From assembly GCF_011839805.1 (NCBI RefSeq), contig NZ_VWPY01000018.1:1-64000 (forward strand): a stretch of DNA of 64,000 nt. Direction: 5' to 3'. This stretch comes from Kineococcus rubinsiae (lineage in GTDB: Bacteria; Actinomycetota; Actinomycetes; Actinomycetales; Kineococcaceae). The notes under the pieces are model-generated. The model made no database searches, was not told the origin of the DNA, and saw nothing but the letters and a program-made list of their open reading frames with translations. A program made the translations under genes and the position numbers. This document shows, piece after piece, positions 14,338 through 38,731 of the stretch (the first letter of the stretch is position 1; each line of letters opens with the position of its first letter).

Positions 14338-14413
14338 GCACGGCCCCGCGGGCCCCTGAGGCCCGCTCACCCGGTCGGCTCAAGCTCCCTTGATCGTCCG
14401 CCGACAGAGGTTC

Positions 14414-15901
14414 GTGCCTTCGCCCCGCCTGTCCGACGCACCCGTCGTGAGCCGTGCCCGTCGCTCCCCGGCGCCCTCCTCGCGCCTCATGGCCGGCGAC
14501 GAGGCCGCTCAGCTGCACCTGCTGCGCCGCGCGACCCACGGCCCCACCCCCGAGTCCCGCGCCGAGATCGCGCGCCTGGGCACCCGCGGCTGGCTGGAGG
14601 CGCAGCTCAACCCCGCCTCGATCGACGACAGCGCCCTCGAGGCGTTCGTGCGCCGCTTCCCGAACTACCAGCGCTCCGCCGAGGACGTCGTCCGCGGCGG
14701 CTACCAGGCGGTGGAGTGGAACCTCATGTTCGACGTGGGCCGGATCACCCTGGCCCGCCAGATCTGGTCGCGCCGGCAGCTGCTGGAGGTCGTGGTCGAC
14801 GTCTGGAACAACCTCCTGCACGTCGCCTGCCCCAGCTCCGACGTGTGGTCGAGCCGGCAGGACTACGACCGCACCGTGATCCGGCGGCACGCGTTCGGCT
14901 CCTTCGCGGACATGCTGGTCGACTCGGCCCGCAACCCCGCGATGCTGCAGTTCCTCGACAACTCCAGCTCCCGCGCCGGCGCCCCGAACGAGAACTACGC
15001 CCGCGAGCTCCTCGAGCTGCACACCGTCGGCGTCGACGCCGGCTACACGGAGGCCGACGTCAAGACCGGTGCCCGGCTGCTGACGGGCCTGCGCGCCAAC
15101 GACGCCGGCGTGTCCGTCTTCGACGCCTCGCGCCACGACGCCGGCGGCGGCACGGTCTTCGGGTTCAGCTACCCGGCCCACGCGCCGGGCGACGGCTTCC
15201 GCTGGATCGAGGCCTACCTGCGCTACCTGGCCGTCCACCCGGCGACCGCCGCCCGCGTCTGCCGCCGCCTCGCCGTGCGCTTCGTCAGCGACGAGCCGCC
15301 CGCCTCGCTCGTCGACCGGATGGCCCAGGTGTGGCGCGCCGGGGGCGCCCAGATCGTCCCCGTGCTGCGGACGCTGTTCACCTCGCCGGAGTTCGCCGCC
15401 TCGGCCGGGGCGAAGGTCCGCACGCCGCAGGAGGACTTCGTCGCCGCGCTGCGCACCCTGGGCACCGGCATGGAGGCCTCGGGCACCGCCGGCATCGTCA
15501 AGCTCTACTGGCACACCCTGGACTCGGGACACGCGCCGATGGCCTGGGGCGCGCCGAACGGCTACCCCGACGTCGCCGCCGCGTGGGCCTCCCCCAGCGG
15601 CACCCTGCTGCGCTGGAACCGGCACATGGACTTCGCGGGCGGCTGGTACCCGAAGGAGCTGCAGTTCAAGCCCGCCAACCAGCTGCTGGACGCGCTGCCC
15701 TCCACGTGGGGCGGCCTCGTCGACGCGCTCGCGCTGCGGCTGATCGGCTCGCCGCTCGGCGCCGAGGAGCGCGCGGCCCTGCTGCAGTACACCGGCCGCG
15801 GCGCCGGCACGCCGCTCGGCTCCGGGGACCGCTGGGTGCAGAACAACGTGCAGTACCTCGTGGCCCTCGTCCTGGACTCCCCGACCTTCTGCAAGAGGTG
15901 A
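14414..15901 (+). CDS. DUF1800 family protein
   Basis: This protein of about 495 residues contains the DUF1800 hallmark HLLRRATHGPTP near the N-terminus, NLLHVACPS in the middle, and NENYARELLELHTVG, which is diagnostic. The start is uncertain: TTG 14390, GTG 14414 and GTG 14447 are all in frame and none has a good ribosome-binding site. No export signal is obvious. The function is unknown. DUF1800 genes are almost always paired with DUF1501 genes, as here, where the two are separated by only 8 nt. Confidence 0.9.
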   Translation: MPSPRLSDAPVVSRARRSPAPSSRLMAGDEAAQLHLLRRATHGPTPESRAEIARLGTRGWLEAQLNPASIDDSALEAFVRRFPNYQRSAEDVVRGGYQAVEWNLMFDVGRITLARQIWSRRQLLEVVVDVWNNLLHVACPSSDVWSSRQDYDRTVIRRHAFGSFADMLVDSARNPAMLQFLDNSSSRAGAPNENYARELLELHTVGVDAGYTEADVKTGARLLTGLRANDAGVSVFDASRHDAGGGTVFGFSYPAHAPGDGFRWIEAYLRYLAVHPATAARVCRRLAVRFVSDEPPASLVDRMAQVWRAGGAQIVPVLRTLFTSPEFAASAGAKVRTPQEDFVAALRTLGTGMEASGTAGIVKLYWHTLDSGHAPMAWGAPNGYPDVAAAWASPSGTLLRWNRHMDFAGGWYPKELQFKPANQLLDALPSTWGGLVDALALRLIGSPLGAEERAALLQYTGRGAGTPLGSGDRWVQNNVQYLVALVLDSPTFCKR

Positions 15902-15909
15902 CCTCCCCC

Positions 15910-17235
15910 ATGGCGCTCCCGACCGCCCGTCCCACCGCCACCGGCCTCCCCGTGAAGAGCAGGGCCGCCGACCGCTGCGCCTGCGACGAGGGCGCGGCCG
16001 CCGCGTCGCAGCTCTCGCGCCGCACCGTGCTCAAGGCCGCCCTGGGTGCCGGCACGGCCGGGGCGACGGCCTTCGCCGTGGGCGACGTCTCCACGCAGGT
16101 CTCCTGGGCCGGCTCCGGCTGGACCGGGGAGACCCTGGTGGTGCTCAGCCTGCACGGCGGCTTCGACGGCCTGTCCGCCGTGGTCCCCGGCGGCGACCCC
16201 GGCTACTACGCGGCCCGCCCGAACATCGCCGTGCCGCGCGCGACGCTGCTCGGCCTGGACCAGACGTTCGGCCTGCACCCGGCCATGGCGCCGCTCATGC
16301 CGTTCTGGCGCAACGGCACCTTCGGCGTCGTGCACGCCGTCGGGCAGGACAACCCCTCGCGCTCGCACTTCGCGGCCATGCAAGAGATGGAGCGGGCCGC
16401 CCCGGGCACCTCGGTGCGCACGGGCTGGATCGACCGCACACTGGGCAGCACGGGCACCGGCTCGGTGCTCAACGGCGTGCAGATCGGGGTGCAGTCGCCG
16501 CCCTCCTTCGCCGGCCCGGTGCAGGAGACGACGATGAACTCGATCGACGCCTTCTCCCTCATCGGCCCCGGCGACGACCGCGCCACCTGGCACTCGGTGC
16601 TGCGCAGGATGCACACCGGCGCCACGGCGACCGTGGCGCAGCCCGCCACGACGCTGCTGACGGCCATGGAGGACGTGGCGCGGATCCGCACCGCGGCCAC
16701 CGGCCCCGCCAACGGCGCGGCCTACCCGGCGGGCGACCTCGGGGCGGCGCTGGCGCAGTCGGCGACCCTGATCCGCTCGGGCGCCCCCGTGCAGGTCCTC
16801 ACCATCGACTACGGCGACTGGGACATGCACGCAGGTCTCGGGCGCGTGGACGCCGGCTGGATGCGCGACAAGCTCGTGGAGCTGTCCTCGGCCCTGGCGG
16901 CCTTCGCCACGGACCTCGGCGGCAAGCTCGCCACGACCACCCTGGTCACGCTGTCGGAGTTCGGCCGCCGCGTCGGGGAGAACCTCTCCGGCGGGCTGGA
17001 CCACGGCCACGGCAACGCCGTCCTGCTGCTCGGCGGGCCCGTCGTGGGCGGCCGCGTGCACGGCCGGTGGCCCGGCCTGGGCGCCGGTCAGCTCCTCGAC
17101 GGCGACCTGGCGGGCACCACCGACTACCGCGCCGTCATCGGCGAGGTGCTCACCAAGCGGCTCGGCGCCGGCACCCTCAGCGACGTCTTCCCGGGCTTCC
17201 GCGGCGACGCGCTGGGCGTCGTCCGCAGCCGCTGA
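15910..17235 (+). CDS. DUF1501 family protein, Tat-exported
   Basis: This 441-residue protein starts at ATG 15910, with AGAGGTGA from the end of the previous gene as ribosome-binding site; GTG 15898 overlaps the preceding stop and is an alternative. The SRRTVLKAALGAG stretch is a twin-arginine signal about 35 residues in. LVVLSLHGGFDGL, DNPSRSHFAAMQEME and the late TLSEFGRRVGEN and DHGHGNAVLLLGG motifs define DUF1501, a distant relative of the alkaline phosphatase/sulfatase superfamily with probable metal ligands (Asp/His). It is probably exported in folded form with its metal. The role is unknown. Confidence 0.92.
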   Translation: MALPTARPTATGLPVKSRAADRCACDEGAAAASQLSRRTVLKAALGAGTAGATAFAVGDVSTQVSWAGSGWTGETLVVLSLHGGFDGLSAVVPGGDPGYYAARPNIAVPRATLLGLDQTFGLHPAMAPLMPFWRNGTFGVVHAVGQDNPSRSHFAAMQEMERAAPGTSVRTGWIDRTLGSTGTGSVLNGVQIGVQSPPSFAGPVQETTMNSIDAFSLIGPGDDRATWHSVLRRMHTGATATVAQPATTLLTAMEDVARIRTAATGPANGAAYPAGDLGAALAQSATLIRSGAPVQVLTIDYGDWDMHAGLGRVDAGWMRDKLVELSSALAAFATDLGGKLATTTLVTLSEFGRRVGENLSGGLDHGHGNAVLLLGGPVVGGRVHGRWPGLGAGQLLDGDLAGTTDYRAVIGEVLTKRLGAGTLSDVFPGFRGDALGVVRSR

Positions 17236-17288
17236 CCGGACCGCCGCGACTCTCCCCACCCTGTGAGGGGCCTGGGAGATCGCTCTCC

Positions 17289-17329
17289 GTCCCGCGCGTC
17301 GCCCCCGCCACGGGGGCGACACGTGGGAC
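17289..17329 (+). terminator. Long hairpin terminator after DUF1501 gene
   Basis: GTCGCCCCC (17298-17306) pairs perfectly with GGGGGCGAC (17312-17320) over a 5-nt loop. The stem continues outward to GTCCC (17289-17293) and GGGAC (17325-17329) with one mismatch and one G-U pair. It lies 54 bp after the DUF1501 stop. Confidence 0.75.
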
Positions 17330-17344
17330 GCTTGTGACGTAGAG

Positions 17345-17373
17345 TGACCTTGTGATCACAGGTGTGTTACAGA
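17345..17373 (+). promoter_or_regulatory. Probable promoter of the LGFP wall-protein operon with internal palindrome
   Basis: The 301-bp gap 17236-17536 holds the terminator and then a locally AT-richer stretch. TGACCT (17345-17350) and TACAGA (17368-17373), 17 bp apart, form a plausible promoter. The spacer contains the perfect palindrome TGTGATCACA (17351-17360), well placed for a repressor. The remaining leader of about 155 nt to the amidase start shows no riboswitch I can recognise. Confidence 0.45.
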
Positions 17374-17536
17374 GTTGTTCACTCCTGCACCTTGTCTCAC
17401 ACGGCTACCGCCTCGTACGTTGCGTAACGATCCGGTCGCACGCTCAAGCTCCCCCCCGACCAGGCCGATGCCTGACACGAGCGTTCACCCATGTGGGTGC
17501 GACCTCCCGTTGATGTCGATCCAGAGCGAGGCCTCC

Positions 17537-19585
17537 ATGCGCGCCACCGGCAACCCCCCGCACAGCCCTGCCCGCGTCTCCCGGCGGGCCCTGCTCGGAA
17601 CCGGCGGAGGCCTCGGAGTGCTGTCCGCCCTCGCGTGCTTCGGCGCCCCGAGCGCCTCCGCGCTCTCGGCGGCACCGCTGCAGCTCGGCGGCGGGACGCA
17701 GGCCTTCAGCCTCGCCGCCCACGCCCCCACCGGCGGCGCCCGCGTCCTGCGCGCCGGGGGCGGGCTCACCACCGTCGCGGTCGAGGTCAGCGGGGGTCAC
17801 ATGCTCGGCGTGACGTTCCCCGCGGGCGCCTCGACCGACACGATCTCCGTGCGCACCCGCGTCGGCGGCACGTGGAGCGCGTGGGCGGACCTGCCCCTGA
17901 ACGACTCCGAGCCCGACCCGGACTCCCTCGACGCCCGCACGGCCGTCGCCGGTTCCGACCCCCTGTGGGTCGGCGCCCTCGGGAGCTCCGCCACCGTCGA
18001 GGTCCGCCTCCCCGCGGCCGACGTCGCCACCGCCGAGCTGCACGTCGTGGACGCCGGCAGCAGCCGCACGCTGCTGAGCGCGGACGCGACGGACACCGAC
18101 GTCGAGACCGACACGGACACCGAGATCGCCGCCGGCGACACCGACCTGCCCCCCGTGAGCACGCTCTCCGTGGCCCGGCCCACGATCAACTCCCGCGCCG
18201 CCTGGGGCGCCGACGAGTCGCTGCGCAAGGGCGTCGCGAGCTACAGCGACACCATCAAGGCGTGTGTCGTGCACCACACCGCCGACGGGGGTTCCTACGG
18301 CCGCGCCGACGTCGCCGCCGTCATGCGGGGCATGTACCGCTACCACACGGTGAGCCTCGGCTGGAGCGACCTCGGCTACAACTTCGTCGTCGACCGCTTC
18401 GGCGGGATCTGGGAGGGGCGCGCGGGCGGCACGAACCTGCCCGTCGTCGGCGCGCACGCCGGCGGTTTCAACACCGACACCTTCGGCGTCTCGATGATGG
18501 GCGACTTCACCTCCGTCGCCCCCTCGGCCGAGACGCTCGAGTCCGTGGCGCGCGTCATCGCCTGGAAGCTCTCGATGTACGACCTCAGCGCCAAGGGTTC
18601 CGCGGTCCTCACCTCCGCGGGCGGCGGGACCGCGCGCTACAAGGCGGGCACCACCGTCACCCTGCGCACGATCAACGGCCACCGCGACGTCGGGTTCACC
18701 GCGTGCCCCGGCAACGTGGGCTACACGAAGATGGACTCGATCCGCACCCGCGTCGCCGCGCTGCTGAGCTCCGCCCCCGCCTCGCTGAGCGCCATCGCGA
18801 CGAAGTACGCCGCCCTCGGCGGCGCCGGTGGGTTCCTCGGCCGTCCGGCCACCGCCGAGGGCAAGGTGCCCAGCGGCAAGGGGTCGTTCCAGTACTTCTC
18901 GGGCGGCGCCATCTACGCCACGCCGGCCCTGGGCGCCCACGTGGTGCGCGGCGCGATCCTCGCGGAGTTCGCCCGCCTCGGGTGGGAGAACGCTCTCGGC
19001 TTCCCCACGAGCGACGACGGCCCGGCCGCCGCGGGCGGCGCCTACACGCACTTCCAGAACGGCTCGATCTACTGGTCGCCGAAGACCGGCGCCCACGACG
19101 TCCGCGGCGCGATCCGCAGCAAGTGGGCGGCGTCGGGCTGGGAGCGCGGTTCCCTCGGGTTCCCCGTGACCGGCGACAGCCCCGCCCGGGGCGGGTTCTA
19201 CACGCACTTCCAGGGCGGCTCGATCTACTGGTCGGCCAAGACCGGCGCCCACCTCACGCGCGGCGCGATCCGCGACAGGTGGGCCGCCCTCGGCTGGGAG
19301 GGCGGCCTCGGCTTCCCCCTCACCGACGACACCGCGACCCCCAACGGCAAGGGCTGGTTCACGCACTTCCAGGGCGGGTCGATCTACTGGTCGCCCGCCA
19401 GCGGCGCGCACGCGGTGCGCGGCGGGATCCGCGACAAGTGGGCGTCGCTGGGCTGGGAGAACGGCTGGCTGGGCTTCCCCACGCGCGACGAGTACGCCGT
19501 CGCCGAGGGGCTGCGCACCGACTTCCAGGGCGGCACCATCACCTGGAACGCCCGCACCGGTGAACTGACCGCGAAGCGCTCGTGA
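17537..19585 (+). CDS. N-acetylmuramoyl-L-alanine amidase (PGRP type) with LGFP repeats
   Basis: This 682-residue secreted wall enzyme starts at ATG 17537, preceded by GAGG at proper distance. A Tat-like signal (SRRALLGTGGG) opens the protein. After a domain of about 150 residues, the amidase/PGRP fold covers roughly 215-410. VVHHTADGG (about 243-251), the GYNFVVDRFGGIWEGRAGG core and GHRDVG (about 380-385) with ACPGN supply the zinc ligands. It would cleave the lactyl-Ala bond of peptidoglycan. The last 255 residues carry five LGFP-type repeats (LGFPTSDD, LGFPVTGD, LGFPLTDD and relatives), thought to bind wall polysaccharide. Its stop overlaps the next start (GTGA). Confidence 0.93.
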   Translation: MRATGNPPHSPARVSRRALLGTGGGLGVLSALACFGAPSASALSAAPLQLGGGTQAFSLAAHAPTGGARVLRAGGGLTTVAVEVSGGHMLGVTFPAGASTDTISVRTRVGGTWSAWADLPLNDSEPDPDSLDARTAVAGSDPLWVGALGSSATVEVRLPAADVATAELHVVDAGSSRTLLSADATDTDVETDTDTEIAAGDTDLPPVSTLSVARPTINSRAAWGADESLRKGVASYSDTIKACVVHHTADGGSYGRADVAAVMRGMYRYHTVSLGWSDLGYNFVVDRFGGIWEGRAGGTNLPVVGAHAGGFNTDTFGVSMMGDFTSVAPSAETLESVARVIAWKLSMYDLSAKGSAVLTSAGGGTARYKAGTTVTLRTINGHRDVGFTACPGNVGYTKMDSIRTRVAALLSSAPASLSAIATKYAALGGAGGFLGRPATAEGKVPSGKGSFQYFSGGAIYATPALGAHVVRGAILAEFARLGWENALGFPTSDDGPAAAGGAYTHFQNGSIYWSPKTGAHDVRGAIRSKWAASGWERGSLGFPVTGDSPARGGFYTHFQGGSIYWSAKTGAHLTRGAIRDRWAALGWEGGLGFPLTDDTATPNGKGWFTHFQGGSIYWSPASGAHAVRGGIRDKWASLGWENGWLGFPTRDEYAVAEGLRTDFQGGTITWNARTGELTAKRS

Positions 19586-22500
19586 GGCGGACGCCCTCGC
19601 GGCGCGCCCGGCTGACGGCCCTCGTGGCCGGCCTCGCCGCGACGGTCGCCGCCCCCCTCCTGACCGCCCCCGCCGCGCAGGCCGAGGTCCTCCCCCGGCC
19701 GCCGGTGAACCTGCCCGCCGACGTCGACGCCTTCGCCGCCTACCAGGGCCCCGCGTCCTGCCAGGCGCCCCAGCCGGGGACCCTGGCCCTGCGCCAGCTC
19801 CTGCTGGACACCTACGGCCGCCAGACCATCGGCAGCGCCCGGGCCTGCCCCGCCGGCGGCGTCCCGGTCAGCGAGCACTCCGAGGGCCGCGCCCTGGACT
19901 GGATGCTCAGCGCGGCCGACCCGGCGCAGAAGGCCACCGCGGACGCGTTCCTGGCGTGGCTGCTGGCACCCGACGCGGCCGGCAACGCCGCCGCGAACGC
20001 GCGCCGGCTCGGCGTCATGTACGTGATCTTCAACGCCCAGGTGTGGAAGGCGTACCGCCCCGGCGCGGGCTGGCAGCCGTACACGGGCGCCGAGGACCAC
20101 ACCGACCACATCCACCTCAGCCTCACGCCGGCCGGGGCGGCACGCGAGACGTCCTGGTGGACGGGCACCGCGGACCCGCTCGAGGGGCACTGGATCCGCC
20201 TCGGCGGGGAGCGCTCCGTCCTGGGCGGGCCCGTCAGCGGCCCCCGCACGCTCGCGGGAGGCAGCCGCTGCCGCAGCTACCGCAACGGCAGCGTGTGCGG
20301 CTCGCCGACCGTGCCGGCCCGCGAGGTGCACGGCGCCATCAGCGGGGCGTTCAACGTCGCCGGCGGTCCCGGCGGTCTCGGCCTGCCGCTGACCGACGAG
20401 CTGGCCACCCCGGGCCGCACCGGCGCCTACAACCACTTCCAGGGCGGGTCGGTCTACTGGTCGCCCGCGACCGGCGCGCACGTCGTGCGCGGCGGGATCC
20501 GCGAGCGCTGGGCCTCCCTCGGCTGGGAGCGCGGCCTCGGCTTCCCCACCACGGACGACGCCCCCACCCCGGCCCGCACCGGCTACTACACGCACTTCCA
20601 GGGCGGCTCCGTCTACTTCTCCCCCGCCACGGGTTCGCACGCGGTGCGCGGTGCGATCCGCGACCGCTGGGCCGCGCTCGGCTGGGAGAAGGGCTGGCTC
20701 GGCTACCCCGCGGGCGAGGAGCACGCCGTCCCCGGCGGGCTCCAGCTGGACTTCCAGGGCGGCTGGATCACGTACGACACCGCCCGGCGCACCGCCACCG
20801 CCACCCGCCGCTGACCTCTTCCGCCGCTGACCGTCACCCGTCGCCGACCGCCCCCCCGAGGAGCCCCCGTGCACCGCCGCCGAACCCCCCGCCGGTCCGC
20901 CCTGGTGACCGTCACCGCGACCGCGTCGCTGCTCGCCACCCTCGGGGGCGGCCTGCTGACCGCCACCTCCGCCCAGGCCGACGAGGTGCGCCCCGTCCCC
21001 GCCGGCGGGCAGTGGACGTTCAGCGGCCACGGCTTCGGCCACGGGATCGGCATGTCGCAGTGGGGTGCGCAGTCGCGCGCCGTCGCGGGCCAGAGCCACC
21101 AGCAGATCCTCGACGCCTACTACCCCGGGACGTCCGCCGGCTCCCACGAGGACCGCCTGCTGCGCGTGGGCCTGACGGCCTTCACGGGGCCGAGCGTCAC
21201 GGTCGCCGCTCCGGGCGCCAACCCGCTGACGCTGTCGACCTCGGGCCGCGTCCTGGCGCCCGGGCAGCGCCTCACGCTGGCCTCCAGCGCAGGTTCCGTC
21301 ATCGCCACGGCCACCCCCGGGTCCGGCGGCGTCGCGGGCTGGACCGAGACCTGGACCTCCAGCCCCACCCTCAGCAGCCCCGACGGCGTGCTCCTCGTGC
21401 GCGGCGACGGCAGCTCCACCCGCTACGCGGGGACCGTGCGCGTCGTGCTGGGCGCGAGCCTGACCGTGGTCAACGACGTCCGCCTCGAGACCTACCTGCG
21501 CGGCGTCGTGCCCGCGGAGTCGCCCTCGTCCTGGTCGGCGCAGGCGCTGCAGGCGCAGGCCGTCGCCGCGCGCAGCTACGCGCTGTCGGTCCTGCGCCCC
21601 GGCGCCGAGACGGACATCTGCGACACGACCTCGTGCCAGGTCTACCGCGGCGCCGAGAGCCGCAGCGCGAGCGGCGCCGTGACGTGGAGCCAGCCCGCCT
21701 CGACGAACGCGGCCATCGCGGCGACCGCCGGCGAGGTGCGCACCTACGGCGGGAACGTCGCGTTCACGCAGTTCTCCTCCTCCAACGGCGGCTGGACCGT
21801 CGCGGGGTCCAAGCCCTACCTCACGGCGGCGGCCGACCCGTTCTCCTCCCCCACCGGCAAGGCCGCGGGCGACCCGGTCGCGAGCTGGAGCACCACCGTG
21901 CCGGCCGCGGCGTTCGACGCGGGCTGCGCCCCCGGCGGCCGCGTCACCAGCCTCGTGATCACCGCCCGCGACGGCCGCGGGGCCGACGGCGGCCGGGTCA
22001 CGAAGGCGAACCTCGTCTGCACCAACGGGGCGGTCGCCGTCACCGGGACGAAGCTGCGCCAGCTCGGCGGGCTGCGCTCGGACTGGTTCACGCTGCCCAG
22101 CCCGATCGCCCTCGCCCACGTGGCCCTGGGCGGGAACTCCGGCCCCCTCGGCGCCGCCCGCACCGGCGAGCAGGCCACGCCCGCCGCGGCCGGCGCGTTC
22201 CAGCACTTCGCGGGCGGCTCGATCTACTTCTCCGCCGCCACCGGCGCCCACGACGTCCGCGGGGCGATCCGCGACCGCTGGGCCGCCCTCGGCTGGGAGA
22301 ACGGCCTGGGTTTCCCGACCTCCGGTGACTCGCGCACCCCCGCCGGGACCGGCTGGTACACCCACTTCCAGGGCGGTTCCGTCTACTCCACGGCCGCCAC
22401 GGGAACCCACGAGGTGCGCGGGGCGATCCGCCAGCGCTGGGCCGCGCTCGGCTGGGAGAACGGGCTCGGCTACCCCGTCACGGGTGACGTCCGCACGCCG

Positions 22501-22850
22501 AACGGCGCCGGGTACTACACGCACTTCCAGGGCGGTTCGATCTACTTCTCGGCGGCCACCGGCGCCCACGAGGTCCGCGGCGCGATCCGCGACGCGTGGG
22601 CCCGGCAGGGCTGGGAGACCGGACCTCTGGGGTTCCCGACCAGCGGTGACCAGCGCACGCCCGCCGGGACCGCCTGGTACACGCACTTCCAGGGCGGTTC
22701 CGTGTACGCCTCCTCGGTCGGCGGCGTGCACGCCGTGCGCGGGCCGATCCGCGACGCGTGGGCCGCGCAGGGCTGGGAGACAGGGACCCTCGGCTACCCC
22801 GTCGGCGACCAGCAGGGTTCCGGAACCTTGTCGCAGCGCTTCCAGGGCGG
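18820..22850 (+). repeat. LGFP-coding repeat family shared by three consecutive genes
   Basis: Copies of a unit of about 150-160 bp encode y-T-H-F-Q-G-G-S-x-Y followed by G-x-H-x-V-R-G-x-I-R and L-G-F-P. Near-identical DNA such as CACTTCCAGGGCGG recurs across all three genes (for example near 19209, 19368, 20433, 20592, 22362, 22521 and 22682). Copies in different genes are as alike as copies within one gene, so slippage, unequal crossing-over or gene conversion is possible. Confidence 0.85.
19582..20814 (+). CDS. Secreted LAS/M15-like putative zinc peptidase with LGFP repeats
   Basis: This 410-residue protein has a Sec signal of about 34 residues (ending in TAPAAQA) and GTG 19582 overlapping the amidase stop. 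The N-terminal domain carries HSEGRALD (His99 and Asp106, an H-x6-D pattern) and DHTDHIHL (His176 and His178). This is the zinc-ligand layout of LAS-type peptidases such as D-Ala-D-Ala carboxypeptidases. The spacing and the LGVMYVIFNAQVW strand resemble the actinobacterial ARB_07466-like domain. It may cut peptidoglycan stem peptides, which is inference. Four LGFP-type repeats (LGGPVSG, LGLPLTDE, LGFPTTDD, LGYPAGEE) follow. Confidence 0.8.
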   Translation: MRRTPSRRARLTALVAGLAATVAAPLLTAPAAQAEVLPRPPVNLPADVDAFAAYQGPASCQAPQPGTLALRQLLLDTYGRQTIGSARACPAGGVPVSEHSEGRALDWMLSAADPAQKATADAFLAWLLAPDAAGNAAANARRLGVMYVIFNAQVWKAYRPGAGWQPYTGAEDHTDHIHLSLTPAGAARETSWWTGTADPLEGHWIRLGGERSVLGGPVSGPRTLAGGSRCRSYRNGSVCGSPTVPAREVHGAISGAFNVAGGPGGLGLPLTDELATPGRTGAYNHFQGGSVYWSPATGAHVVRGGIRERWASLGWERGLGFPTTDDAPTPARTGYYTHFQGGSVYFSPATGSHAVRGAIRDRWAALGWEKGWLGYPAGEEHAVPGGLQLDFQGGWITYDTARRTATATRR

Positions 22851-22896
22851 AACCCTGACCTTCGACCCGGCGACGGGCCGCACCACGCGCTCCTGA
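20869..22896 (+). CDS. SpoIID/LytB domain protein with LGFP repeats
   Basis: This 675-residue exported protein has a signal of about 37 residues. GHGFGHGIGMSQWGA near residues 49-63, then YLRGVVPAES and AVAARSYAL, are the SpoIID/LytB core. SpoIID is a lytic transglycosylase that cleaves denuded glycan strands in sporulating bacteria; non-sporulating actinobacteria carry it as a wall hydrolase or cofactor. Five LGFP-type repeats form the C-terminal 250 residues. GTG 20869 lies 54 bp after the preceding gene behind GAGGAG, so it is probably part of the same operon, with an amidase and a peptidase acting on the same wall. Confidence 0.92.
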   Translation: MHRRRTPRRSALVTVTATASLLATLGGGLLTATSAQADEVRPVPAGGQWTFSGHGFGHGIGMSQWGAQSRAVAGQSHQQILDAYYPGTSAGSHEDRLLRVGLTAFTGPSVTVAAPGANPLTLSTSGRVLAPGQRLTLASSAGSVIATATPGSGGVAGWTETWTSSPTLSSPDGVLLVRGDGSSTRYAGTVRVVLGASLTVVNDVRLETYLRGVVPAESPSSWSAQALQAQAVAARSYALSVLRPGAETDICDTTSCQVYRGAESRSASGAVTWSQPASTNAAIAATAGEVRTYGGNVAFTQFSSSNGGWTVAGSKPYLTAAADPFSSPTGKAAGDPVASWSTTVPAAAFDAGCAPGGRVTSLVITARDGRGADGGRVTKANLVCTNGAVAVTGTKLRQLGGLRSDWFTLPSPIALAHVALGGNSGPLGAARTGEQATPAAAGAFQHFAGGSIYFSAATGAHDVRGAIRDRWAALGWENGLGFPTSGDSRTPAGTGWYTHFQGGSVYSTAATGTHEVRGAIRQRWAALGWENGLGYPVTGDVRTPNGAGYYTHFQGGSIYFSAATGAHEVRGAIRDAWARQGWETGPLGFPTSGDQRTPAGTAWYTHFQGGSVYASSVGGVHAVRGPIRDAWAAQGWETGTLGYPVGDQQGSGTLSQRFQGGTLTFDPATGRTTRS

Positions 22897-22936
22897 CCGG
22901 CCGGGGCCACCCATCGGGTGTCTGACCCGCCTCGCG

Positions 22937-22965
22937 TTGACAACCCGTGCAGGGAGTTCCATCCT
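22937..22965 (+). promoter_or_regulatory. Consensus-like sigma-70 promoter for the MFS gene
   Basis: TTGACA (22937-22942), a perfect -35, is followed after 17 bp by CATCCT (22960-22965). It lies about 95 bp upstream of the GTG start of the MFS transporter. Confidence 0.6.
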
Positions 22966-23060
22966 CTGACCGGGGCTCCGGGCCTGCGGTCGACGGGGCC
23001 CAGCGCCCCCACGGCCACCGGCCCGGCTCTCCGCACTCACTTCAGCGACGAGGGAGAGCC

Positions 23061-24413
23061 GTGAGCGGCAGCAGTTCCGAGAAGCCCGGACGTCCGGGCA
23101 CCGGGGTCGTGGAGAACGCCCTGGAGGTCGCCGTCAACCCCGGCACCAGCAAGCCGTGGCTCCCGAAGGGCCACGCCATGTCGTGGTGGACGCTCGTGGT
23201 GACCACGGGCGCCATCCTCATGACCTCCATCGACGGCGGGATCCTGCCCGCGGTCCTGCCGGCCATCACCGACGAGTTCGGCCTGAACAGCGTCCAGGCC
23301 GGGCTCATCAACTCCGTGTTCTTCGCCTCCCTCATCGTGGGCGCGATCGCCTTCGGGTGGGCCTCGGACCGCGTCGGCACGGGCTACCGGCGGACGTGGA
23401 CGTGGAACGTGGCGATGCTCTTCGCCATCGTCGGCGGCGCCCTGACGTTCGGGTTCGCGGGCAGCTTCGTGGCCTTCCTGCTGCTGCGCATCCCAATGGG
23501 CATCAGCCGCGGCGGGTCCGAACCCGTCAACGTGGCCCTCGTGGGCGAGTGGTGGCCGAAGGAGCACCGCGGCTTCGCGCTCGGCGTGCACCACACGGGC
23601 TTCCCGATCGGGCAGTTCCTCACCGGCGCGATGATCGCCGTCATCCTCGGCGTCGCCGGCTGGCGCGAGGCGTTCCTGCTGATCCCCCTGCTGGGGATCG
23701 TCATCGTCGTCCTGCAGGCGTTCATCGGGACCCGGCGCAACCAGCAGAAGGTCTACGACTGGATCGACGAGAACCACCTGACCCGGCCGCTGCCGGAGCT
23801 GTCGACGCGCCTGTCCGGCAGCGTCCTCGCCCCCGTCAAGGCCGCGCTGGCGAACCGGAACGTGCGCTGGGCCGTCGCCCTCGTGTTCCTGTTCCTGTGG
23901 GGCGAGGCCGGCGCGGTCACGTTCCTCACCACCCAGTTCGTCGGCCAGGGCATGAGCCAGGGCCAGGCCGCGCTGATCGCCGGGGCCTCCGGCATCACGG
24001 GCTGGATCGGGCAGATCGTGTGGGGCACGCTGTCGGACCGCACGGGCCGCAAGTCGGCCATCACGTTCCTCGTGATCGGCTGGTCGGTGTCGCTGCTCGG
24101 GATGATCTTTATCACCGGCCCCGCCAGCGCGTGGCTCGTCCTGCTGTTCTGGGGCCTGTTCCGCAACGCGCCCTTCCCCGTCGTCTACGCCCTCCTGCTC
24201 GACTCGGTGCCGAAGGCGGCCGGGACGGCGATGGGCCTGATGATCGGGGTGGCGCTGGGGCTCTCGGGCGTCTTCGCCTCGGTGGTCGCCGGCGGGGTGA
24301 TCGACCGGTTCGGGTTCACCACCCACTACGTCGTGCTCGCGGCCGTCGTCCTGCTGGCGCTCGTCCCGCTCTCCCGCATCAAGGAGACGGTGGCGGTCGG
24401 CACGCACGCCTGA
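23061..24413 (+). CDS. MFS transporter
   Basis: This 450-residue, 12-helix major facilitator starts at GTG 23061 behind GAGGGAGAG. GWASDRVGTGYRR in loop 2-3 is the MFS A-like motif, and a matching WGTLSDRTGRK follows helix 8. Helix 1 carries the SIDGGILP segment seen in carboxylate/sugar-acid carriers. The long hydrophilic loop (residues about 220-275) splits the two halves. It is convergent with an FMN alpha-hydroxy-acid oxidase, so lactate, glycolate or a related acid is a reasonable but unproven substrate. Confidence 0.88.
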   Translation: MSGSSSEKPGRPGTGVVENALEVAVNPGTSKPWLPKGHAMSWWTLVVTTGAILMTSIDGGILPAVLPAITDEFGLNSVQAGLINSVFFASLIVGAIAFGWASDRVGTGYRRTWTWNVAMLFAIVGGALTFGFAGSFVAFLLLRIPMGISRGGSEPVNVALVGEWWPKEHRGFALGVHHTGFPIGQFLTGAMIAVILGVAGWREAFLLIPLLGIVIVVLQAFIGTRRNQQKVYDWIDENHLTRPLPELSTRLSGSVLAPVKAALANRNVRWAVALVFLFLWGEAGAVTFLTTQFVGQGMSQGQAALIAGASGITGWIGQIVWGTLSDRTGRKSAITFLVIGWSVSLLGMIFITGPASAWLVLLFWGLFRNAPFPVVYALLLDSVPKAAGTAMGLMIGVALGLSGVFASVVAGGVIDRFGFTTHYVVLAAVVLLALVPLSRIKETVAVGTHA

Positions 24414-24461: not shown

Positions 24462-25823
24462 TCAGGCCTGCAGCACGTCCTCGCGGGTGTCCGGCGTCGC
24501 GGTGAGCGGCGGGCCCGGCACGACGAGGTCGGCGGGTTCCGGCTCGTCCCACTCCGCGGGGTAGCGCACGGCGCTGCGGTCCAGCTCGTCCAGCGAGCGC
24601 CGGCCCAGGAGGATCAGCGTCTCGCACAGCTCGGTCGTCAGCAGCTCCGCGACGCGGGCGGCGCCGCGCTCCCCCGCCGCGCTGAGGCCGTAGACCCAGG
24701 GGCGGCCGATGCCCACGGCGTCCGCGCCCATGGCCATCGCCTTGGCGATGTCGCTGCCGTGCCGGATGCCCGAGTCGAAGATGATCTCCGCCCGCCCGCC
24801 GACGGCCTCGGCGATGCGCGGCAGGACGCTGATGGTGCTGGGCTGGGAGTCGAGCTGCCGGCCGCCGTGGTTGCTGACCCACACGGCGTCGGCACCGACG
24901 CGGACGGCGTCGAGCGCGTCCGCGACCGACGTCACGCCCTTGACGACGAGCGGCCCCGACCAGCGCGAGCGCAGCCAGGCGACGTCCTCCCAGCTGGCCT
25001 TGAGGTTCGACAGCTCGGTGTTCACGTACTCCTGGTGGCTCATGGCGCTGGAGCCCTCGGCGATGCCGAGCAGGTTGCGGAAGCCGATCGGCGGCCCGTC
25101 CAGGAGGCCCAGGAACCACGACGGGTGCCGCGCCACCCCGGCCGCGTTGGCCGCGGTCACCTTGGGCGGGATCGACATGCCGTTGCGGTGGTCGCGCGAG
25201 CGCTTGCCGTTCACCGCGACGTCGATGGTGACGACCAGCGCCTTGCAGCCCACCGCCTCCGCGCGGTCGACGAGCTGGGTGATGACGTCCTTGGAGCGCC
25301 ACATGTACAGCTGGAACCACAGCGGCCCGGTGGCGTGCGCGGCGATCTCCTCGATCGACCAGCTCGCCGCCGTGCTGATGGTGAACGGCAGCCCGGCCCG
25401 CCCGGCCGCCCGCACGGCGCTGAGCTCGCCGTCGCCGCCCGCGATCCGCAGCAGACCCGTCGGCGCGCAGACCATCGGCGACGTCAGCCGCTCGCCCAGC
25501 AGCGTCGTGCCCAGGTCCTGCGTCGACACGTCGCGCATCGAGCGGGCCCGGAACGTCACCGCGGCCAGGTCGCGCACGTTGGCGCGCAGCGTGTTCTCCG
25601 CGTCCGCGCCCCCGTCGACGTAGTCGAAGGCCATCTTCGGCAGCCGCTTGCGGGCCAGGGTGCGGATGTCCTCGATCGACGGTGCGGAGGCCAGGCGATC
25701 GGTGGAGAAGCCGCCCGCGACGAGCATCTTCGAGACCTCGCCCACCGCGTCGAGGCGCCGCCGGATCGGCGCAGGCAGCCGGCCGGTCAGCCGGGACGTC
25801 GAGGAGGAGCGGGGCGTGCTCAT
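24462..25823 (-). CDS. FMN-dependent alpha-hydroxy-acid oxidase (L-lactate dehydrogenase-like)
   Basis: This 453-residue enzyme of the glycolate oxidase/LldD family oxidises an L-2-hydroxy acid to the keto acid with FMN. An N-terminal ARKRLPKMAFDYVDGGA motif is typical. SNHGGRQLD contains the catalytic His (about residue 319), and DSGIRHGSDIAKAMAMGAD binds the FMN phosphate. Substrate choice among lactate, glycolate and mandelate is open. ATG 25823 overlaps the stop of the GT87 gene (ATGA) and AGGAG precedes it, so it is co-transcribed at the tail of the cell-wall operon. Confidence 0.9.
   Translation of the reverse strand: MSTPRSSSTSRLTGRLPAPIRRRLDAVGEVSKMLVAGGFSTDRLASAPSIEDIRTLARKRLPKMAFDYVDGGADAENTLRANVRDLAAVTFRARSMRDVSTQDLGTTLLGERLTSPMVCAPTGLLRIAGGDGELSAVRAAGRAGLPFTISTAASWSIEEIAAHATGPLWFQLYMWRSKDVITQLVDRAEAVGCKALVVTIDVAVNGKRSRDHRNGMSIPPKVTAANAAGVARHPSWFLGLLDGPPIGFRNLLGIAEGSSAMSHQEYVNTELSNLKASWEDVAWLRSRWSGPLVVKGVTSVADALDAVRVGADAVWVSNHGGRQLDSQPSTISVLPRIAEAVGGRAEIIFDSGIRHGSDIAKAMAMGADAVGIGRPWVYGLSAAGERGAARVAELLTTELCETLILLGRRSLDELDRSAVRYPAEWDEPEPADLVVPGPPLTATPDTREDVLQA

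Positions 25824-34214: not shown

Positions 34215-38731
<4,517 letters not shown>

Follow-up and report, generated by a model that had tools for sequence, protein, structure and literature searches.

A predicted FliA/WhiG-type promoter precedes a three-gene operon of putative LGFP-anchored wall hydrolases in Kineococcus

Why would a bacterium keep, side by side, genes for three different cell wall hydrolases that all end in the same kind of repeat? The question is raised by a 64,000-nucleotide stretch of Kineococcus rubinsiae DNA (positions 1 to 64,000 of contig NZ_VWPY01000018.1, assembly GCF_011839805.1), analysed as a whole and called the window here, in which genes A, B and C occupy positions 17537-22896. 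An earlier note on this DNA had described the trio as an operon for an amidase, a putative LAS/M15 zinc peptidase and a SpoIID protein, a coordinated toolkit of LGFP-bearing enzymes held to one polysaccharide. All three open reading frames were recovered where that note had placed them, and Pfam finds LGFP repeats at the C-terminus of every protein of the trio. Based on the collective evidence, we consider it fairly probable that the genes form a wall-anchored, peptidoglycan-cutting operon that is switched on together with motility by a sigma factor of the FliA/WhiG family, freeing motile cells.

Gene A (17537-19585, on the plus strand like all features of the locus given below) starts at an ATG inside a longer frame opening at 17375 and encodes 682 residues; a Tat (twin-arginine translocation)-like signal (VSRRALLG, recognised by eye) is followed by an Amidase_2 domain and five LGFP repeats. 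Gene B (19582-20814, 410 residues) combines a signal peptide, again seen by eye, with a LAS zinc peptidase domain of the VldE type, followed by LGFP repeats, and gene C (20869-22896, 675 residues) a SpoIID domain with LGFP repeats. The stop of A and the start of B overlap by 4 nucleotides (nt) in GTGA (19582-19585). Taken at the outermost candidate start of B, this 4-nt overlap is found in the window and in locus L031, and a 1-nt gap in L032, L033, L034, L036 and L037; the spacing between B and C is 16 to 54 bases at the likeliest starts, L037 having either a 4-base overlap or a 23-base gap. The complete trio stands in this order in those six other loci of the genus and is interrupted by a contig end in a seventh, L035. 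Because gene order and tight spacing are conserved in the genus, the operon proposed in the earlier note is very likely, and we regard the three genes as almost certainly belonging to one. Neither sigma-70-type promoters nor intrinsic terminators were detected in 17200-23200, where shuffled sequence yields almost none too. Elsewhere in the genus, amidase and peptidase adjoin another LGFP protein in L038 and L039, and a search for B in genomes G004 and G010 gave weak matches only. L033 holds a second amidase-LAS pair with LGFP repeats at 15441-18277, a few kilobases (kb) from the main trio, and L034 and L037 each have a lone second amidase.

Alignment of the region upstream of A from eight Kineococcus loci displays two conserved stretches. 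One of them, at 17443-17470, consists of the box pair CTCAAG-N15-GCCGATG and lies 66 nt upstream of the start codon of A. Neither box varies among the eight aligned loci or in L039, which makes nine loci altogether, the ninth having been found by searching with the pattern itself. The spacer between them has a pair identity of 0.41 as compared to 0.60 in the flanks. In its sequence the pair resembles the published flagellar (FliA/WhiG) promoter, the consensus of which, common to WhiG, comprises TAAA and GCCGATAA (PMC8325347). The boxes are preceded by a block of about 100 bases (17334-17433; first bases GTGACGTAGAGTGA). Its conservation in the genus is strong, and it may be a regulator-binding site or contain a second promoter. 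A riboswitch upstream was sought with Rfam, which at gathering thresholds matches nothing in the window.

What the boxes are shared with provides the link to motility. The pattern CTCA-N17-GCCGATG matches the genome 18 times and its reversed form not once; five control spacings summed give 14 matches (about 2.8 each) and their reversed controls 13, so that the 18 matches have a Poisson p of 1.2e-9 against the control spacings. Pfam scans of ten of the 18 downstream genes identified FliD, a FliI-like ATPase, three methyl-accepting chemotaxis proteins, one EAL protein, three GGDEF proteins and one NIT sensor. The eight loci outside the Pfam scan comprise this operon, a pilin and a subtilase recognised by eye (L207, L215), and L206, L208, L209, L211 and L213. 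A looser copy ending in GCCGAAT begins 26 nt ahead of a flgB-like gene, if the longest frame of that gene is taken; the gene heads a cluster resembling, by eye, flgC, fliE, fliF and fliG. Of the best two FliA/WhiG-family matches in the genome, C93 scores over the equivalog cut-off and lies about 5.5 kb from genes that look by eye like rpsB and tsf, and C69 scores under that cut-off and is flanked by flagellin-family genes. All ten tested genomes of the window's family contain flagellin. Given boxes that are both conserved and shared with flagellar genes, we predict with high confidence that a FliA/WhiG-type promoter precedes the operon.

The assignment of A relies on the Amidase_2 profile (PF01510, E 8.8e-16), which covers a catalytic region at 18152-18751, together with candidate zinc ligands. 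In an alignment of 20 sequences of relatives, H41-H42, H177 and C185 are invariant and occupy the positions expected of the H, H and C that we take to be the zinc ligands of this family.

Gene B required a different approach. Its first 223 residues have no Pfam match even at E 10, which rules out the Pfam Peptidase M15 assignment. Its LAS domain (19666-20196; motifs SEHSEGRALD and DHTDHIHLS) has the zinc motifs H-x6-D and HxH, and the zinc-site residues H71, D78 and H150 are invariant among the 31 sequences collected for the family. Compared with NCBIfam and Pfam, these 31 members give stray matches only (best E 0.051 and 0.012, respectively), the lone Pfam stray being one member that matches M15_3 at E 0.012. 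The family profile retrieves pneumococcal VldE at E 4.5e-7, and structure comparison of the AlphaFold2 model (mean predicted local distance difference test score, pLDDT, 92.1) with VldE entries gives Z of 10.7 to 11.6. For the three best entries, Z is 11.4-11.6 and the root-mean-square deviation (rmsd) 2.0-2.2 over 103-105 residues. The next fold listed follows at Z 4.7, the other rows listed lie below 5, and Hedgehog, LdcB and MepA were set aside as kin of B accordingly. The nearest solved relative of B is thus the L,D-endopeptidase VldE (Spr1875) of Streptococcus pneumoniae, with which it has in common the LAS fold and the H-x6-D and HxDHxH motifs. The two differ in sequence (about 24 percent identity), in about 30 additional N-terminal residues of the B domain that lie outside the structure match, and in the anchor, LGFP in B as compared to LysM in VldE. 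In cross-linked stems, VldE cleaves the acceptor strand at L-Ala-D-Glu (PMC11667670). The most plausible reading of B is therefore a VldE-like L,D-endopeptidase and not an M15 carboxypeptidase. Of the earlier LAS/M15 label, the LAS fold is borne out and the M15 part gives way to VldE. The family to which B belongs is a LAS peptidase family without a name in the Pfam and NCBIfam copies used.

Protein C contains the SpoIID domain (PF08486, E 2.2e-26) in a catalytic region at 20989-22128, with the motif GVVPAESP whose glutamate, E177, is invariant among 20 sequences of relatives; in SpoIID of C. difficile, the glutamate of the GVVxxEMP/S-like motif is catalytic (PMC6934232). C belongs to the SpoIID/LytB family (TIGR02669, 173 bits against a cut-off of 83.3), and its identification as the sporulation SpoIID equivalog (TIGR02870) was rejected at 105.3 bits against 234.75. 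We are highly confident in the enzyme classes given to the three proteins, and the claim that they address three different bonds is upheld to the extent that domain identity and conserved catalytic residues can predict it. SpoIID enzymes require denuded glycan, freed of its peptides (PMC6934232). Such a substrate for C could come from A and, partly, from B, and sequential action of the amidase and then the SpoIID protein appears likely to us.

Pairing of an amidase with a SpoIID protein recurs well beyond Kineococcus. Of the 256 genomes of the class, 120 are matched by a tail-less SpoIID profile at E 1e-50, and 60 of the SpoIID loci so found were taken, mostly one per genus. An A-type amidase lies within 8 kb in 22 of the 60, against a chance expectation of about 0.2 calculated from amidase frequency (the amidase profile, run on 30 of these genomes, matched 20 times, in 16 of them); the peptidase is that close in 4 of the 60. 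Viewed from the peptidase, a SpoIID or amidase gene occurs within 8 kb in 31 of 68 loci of at least 15 kb. Nine of 41 amidase-SpoIID pairs, spread over several families (L114, L161, L162, L176, L183, L190, L197, L198 and L204), are single open frames and would be fusions unless sequencing error hides a stop. Concordance of the tails was evaluated after 15 of the 41 pairs were dropped (fused, or with a tail below 100 residues) and the window was added, giving 27 loci; L065-L067 were excluded as duplicates of L035, L039 and L040. Of these 27 unfused loci, 23 have an amidase tail homologous to the SpoIID tail. With one locus per family, and with the family labels of two loci assigned by us (L044 to Dermatophilaceae, L094 to f43), the tails agree in about 9.7 of 12 families as compared to 2.1 in permutations (maximum 8 in 2000). 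The type of tail differs between lineages and may be LGFP, CWB2, FG-GAP or unnamed. In a tree of the catalytic domains, nine amidases (seven Dermatophilaceae-type, two f36) form one group with support 99/97 that includes both CWB2 and FG-GAP anchors, and their SpoIID partners straddle a 100/100 split; inner forks of the tree are partly unsupported, and it is used as a hint only on anchor history as opposed to enzyme history. Gene order, A-B spacing, conserved FliA/WhiG-type boxes and the recurrent pairing and fusion elsewhere together strengthen the notion of a coordinated toolkit.

The LGFP profile (PF08310) exceeds its curated cut-off in A (E 8.2e-96, five stretches), B (E 1.8e-59, three) and C (E 2.4e-85, four), and the genome-wide repeat scan places five, three and five repeats over cut-off in the arrays of A (18836-19564), B (20221-20694) and C (22147-22881). 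The four to five repeats previously counted therefore hold for A and C, not for B, where three are called and an additional half repeat to about 20790, visible by eye, is not. The cut-off for one repeat is 22 bits, and individual repeats of the trio reach as much as 94, far beyond chance. The array of A, the only one modelled (AlphaFold2, pLDDT 93.8), is predicted to be a stalk like the C-terminal domain of C. glutamicum mycoloyltransferase A (PS1): Foldseek aligns it to 6sx4 with E 3.2e-25, TM 0.85, rmsd 2.0 and 35 percent identity. In that protein the stalk sits on a mycolate transferase, whereas the Kineococcus arrays sit on peptidoglycan hydrolases. The mycoloyltransferase A stalk reportedly binds peptidoglycan-arabinogalactan, and the match to it would favour the proposal, made at the outset, that the trio is bound specifically to galactan or arabinan. 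The window also encodes a GlfT2-like galactofuranosyltransferase (34218-37397; GlfT2_domain3 E 9.9e-50), a further point for that proposal. Together with additional glycosyltransferase genes near it, this gene is likely concerned with galactan synthesis. Arabinogalactan in the wall of K. aurantiacus is the subject of a paper known here by its title in the reference list of PMC2587704, and in C. glutamicum an interaction with the peptidoglycan layer is described for the LGFP domains of three proteins (PMC12113857).

Distribution among genomes argues against galactan as the obligatory ligand. In one chosen set of 60 genomes (the flagellin census used another chosen 60), six have both LGFP and GlfT2, five LGFP only, nine GlfT2 only and 40 neither, at a strict limit of 1e-15 per LGFP repeat, by which genomes with weaker repeats such as G027 are scored as lacking LGFP. 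The co-occurrence is weak (Fisher p 0.021, uncorrected for relatedness, with three of the six "both" genomes from the window's own family). GlfT2 matches are absent from five of the eleven genomes with strong LGFP, two heavy users among them (G076 with 48 repeats, G066 with 15). Attachment of the trio to one polysaccharide, possibly galactan or arabinan, is accordingly not established, and we hold specific binding to either polymer to be doubtful.

LGFP might also be nothing more than the default anchor of the lineage, shared by ordinary wall-turnover enzymes without functional meaning. Seven further proteins of the genome bear LGFP, several of them with unrelated domains; they include CAP, GDSL lipase and subtilase proteins, as well as one whose M12-type match is weak and falls short of its cut-offs. 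Because of these seven, LGFP is seen as a general wall anchor in the Kineococcus rubinsiae genome. L053:5513-8698 encodes a large protein that combines LGFP and fn3 domains and weakly matches M12-type metallopeptidases. Nor do the arrays of the trio resemble one another in a manner that would indicate a common fate: identity is 57.1, 52.5 and 49.8 percent within a genome and 57.4, 51.8 and 50.5 percent between genomes, the first pair of values being that for A and C, which again suits a default anchor. Since likeness within the genome is no higher than between genomes, gene conversion does not hold the arrays together, and concerted evolution within Kineococcus genomes was rejected. At L047:7324-10904, the tails of an amidase and a LAS peptidase, with no Pfam name over cut-off, are 94 percent identical over 252 residues; judged from these sequences, an anchor may recently have been copied between neighbouring genes, and concerted evolution may operate there. 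Against a meaningless default stand the Dermatophilaceae-type loci L090, L091 and L119 (CWB2) and L118 and L139 (FG-GAP), in which the anchors of amidase and SpoIID protein agree while the peptidase keeps PG_binding_1, L044 and L077 being the ones that do not fit the pattern. The conserved box pair, in addition, puts the operon in a special regulon. Sharing by default is thus considered unlikely.

The promoter evidence could be accommodated differently, by an operon that opens the wall locally for the passage of flagella or type IV pili and has no part in cell separation, given that the box pair is common to flagellar and pilin genes. Three hydrolases with wall-anchoring stalks, among whose domains Pfam finds no flagellar or pilus domain, speak against it, as does the position of the flagellar genes, which were seen on other draft contigs and are not known neighbours; we judge this explanation improbable. 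Secreted lytic weapons or scavenging enzymes aimed at other bacteria, for which the export signals (by eye) and lytic domains of all three proteins might be quoted, are very hard to reconcile with anchors of a wall-binding type, a conserved position in the genus and the box pair of a motility regulon.

To return to a motility-coupled, wall-anchored operon as the preferred explanation, several observations weigh against it. About five of the 18 genome matches of the motif (L206, L208, L209, L211, L213) look like background. Outside Kineococcus, 229 upstream regions contained seven box pairs at N15, two at the 24 other spacings together and one at N15 on the opposite strand, in a motif class (CTCA[AG]G, GCCGA[TAG]) that was fixed only after the first matches had been seen. 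Four of the six non-Kineococcus motif genomes tested have no flagellin match, three of these four being less than 95% complete, and flagellin-bearing G027, G036 and G052 have these genes but show no such motif. With flagellin in only two of the six, the sigma factor may elsewhere serve a purpose other than swimming. L038 and L039, which are Kineococcus by name, show no SpoIID match in the 20 kb seen. An A-type amidase is missing from the 8 kb around 38 of the 60 SpoIID loci, contig ends truncating some of the 38, and amidase and SpoIID tails are unlike in four of the 27 loci compared (L043, L044, L077, L171). The peptidase outside Kineococcus often has PG_binding_1 next to neighbours with CWB2 or FG-GAP; three-way sharing of the anchor is not general outside the genus. 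Lastly, a published table lists B. subtilis LytB as lacking peptidoglycan hydrolysis (PMC10653849); by analogy, C might stimulate the amidase and not be an enzyme itself.

The biological setting is well suited to the proposed function. The genus Kineococcus is known for growth in adhering clusters from which swimming cells are later released; in K. radiotolerans, cubes of non-motile cells give way to dispersed zoospores (PMC2587704). At the turn from cluster to zoospore, a FliA/WhiG-family sigma factor would induce the flagellar, chemotaxis, pilus and cyclic di-GMP genes and this operon with them. A, B and C would be exported and then held in the wall by their LGFP stalks, whose target, by analogy with mycoloyltransferase A, may be peptidoglycan-arabinogalactan. 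As expected from their families, the amidase A would cut the bond between N-acetylmuramic acid and L-Ala, and B the L-Ala-D-Glu bond in cross-linked stems, both helping to leave bare glycan that C would cleave between cells as a lytic transglycosylase. The outcome would be cell separation, with motile cells released from the non-motile clusters. Considered separately, a role of the operon in this release is one to which we incline, if only slightly.

Sigma-28 control of autolysins and LGFP repeats on wall hydrolases are both already known kinds of arrangement. The lytB and lytC genes of B. subtilis lie in one operon (lytABC), and both products use the CWB2 anchor. This system is the closest analogue, with an amidase and a SpoIID-domain protein both under SigD, and the trio shares with it the clustering of these two functions on like anchors. 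LytB is a SpoIID-domain protein also similar to the amidase LytC, and both are listed under SigD (PMC10653849). SigD is the FliA/WhiG orthologue (PMC4255298), and in B. subtilis it controls vegetative autolysins as well as flagella and motility (PMC3865298). The Kineococcus operon differs in having LGFP in place of CWB2-type repeats, an added LAS endopeptidase and a host of another phylum. Its membership in the lytABC type was rejected on the amidase, A being Amidase_2 and LytC Amidase_3 (PMC10653849). The parallel is a functional one, and common descent is not claimed. In the SpoIIP-SpoIID machinery of endospore formers, an amidase/endopeptidase denudes the glycan and the SpoIID lytic transglycosylase then cuts it (PMC6934232), whereas the enzymes of the trio are predicted to be secreted and anchored in the wall. 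Membership in a SpoIIDMP engulfment complex was likewise rejected, as a search confined to the locus, covering the trio and the scanned flanking genes, found neither a SpoIIP nor a SpoIIM domain. The promoter class is that of the WhiG/FliA regulons of Rubrobacter and Actinoplanes, where WhiG targets are type IV pilus, flagellar and diguanylate cyclase/phosphodiesterase genes (PMC8325347); these regulons name no wall hydrolase in the main text of that paper, from which the word "hydrolase" is absent. A literature search with most subscription journals outside it returned no title or abstract beginning that joins a SpoIID-amidase operon to FliA/WhiG in actinobacteria.

Upstream of the operon, a second FliA/WhiG-type box pair is predicted on the plus strand at 14379-14404 (CTCAAG-N15-GCCGA), before a DUF1800 gene (14390-15901; PF08811, E 1.1e-118; true start perhaps an ATG near 14489) that is followed by a DUF1501 gene (15904-17235, start approximate; PF07394, E 5.4e-22). 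A count over the whole window gives two box pairs at N15 and a single one for the other 24 spacings combined. It stands just before the DUF1800 homologue in all five relatives that show the gene (L032, L033, L034, L036, L037); neither DUF gene is found in the stretch seen of L038 and L039, and that of L031 begins inside DUF1501. The DUF1800-DUF1501 pair may belong to the programme of the operon. On the other side, 24465-25823 encodes a flavin mononucleotide-dependent dehydrogenase adjoining a major facilitator superfamily transporter and a GT87 gene, surroundings which we take to resemble a mycofactocin-type neighbourhood.

We tentatively extend these observations to a five-gene dispersal locus (DUF1800, DUF1501, amidase, VldE-like peptidase, SpoIID) with two FliA/WhiG-type promoters, in which flagella would be coupled to cell release, the amidase-SpoIID pair would be a recurrent actinobacterial machine whose anchors (LGFP, CWB2, FG-GAP) are exchanged together, and sigma-28 control would have been reached separately in Firmicutes and Actinomycetota.

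Our study is relevant to two questions left by earlier work. A review that reports developmental genes in Kineococcus leaves unanswered what purpose they have in a simple coccus (PMC4255298), and the K. radiotolerans genome paper describes regulation of the motility island as not fully worked out (PMC2587704). The operon and its predicted promoter make both questions directly testable. The amidase-SpoIID pair, matched in its anchors and repeatedly fused, is an actinobacterial candidate for the amidase-then-transglycosylase logic of endospore formers. One genetic switch may build flagella and cut cells loose, and the five-gene dispersal locus, if true, would explain what the developmental regulators do in a simple coccus.

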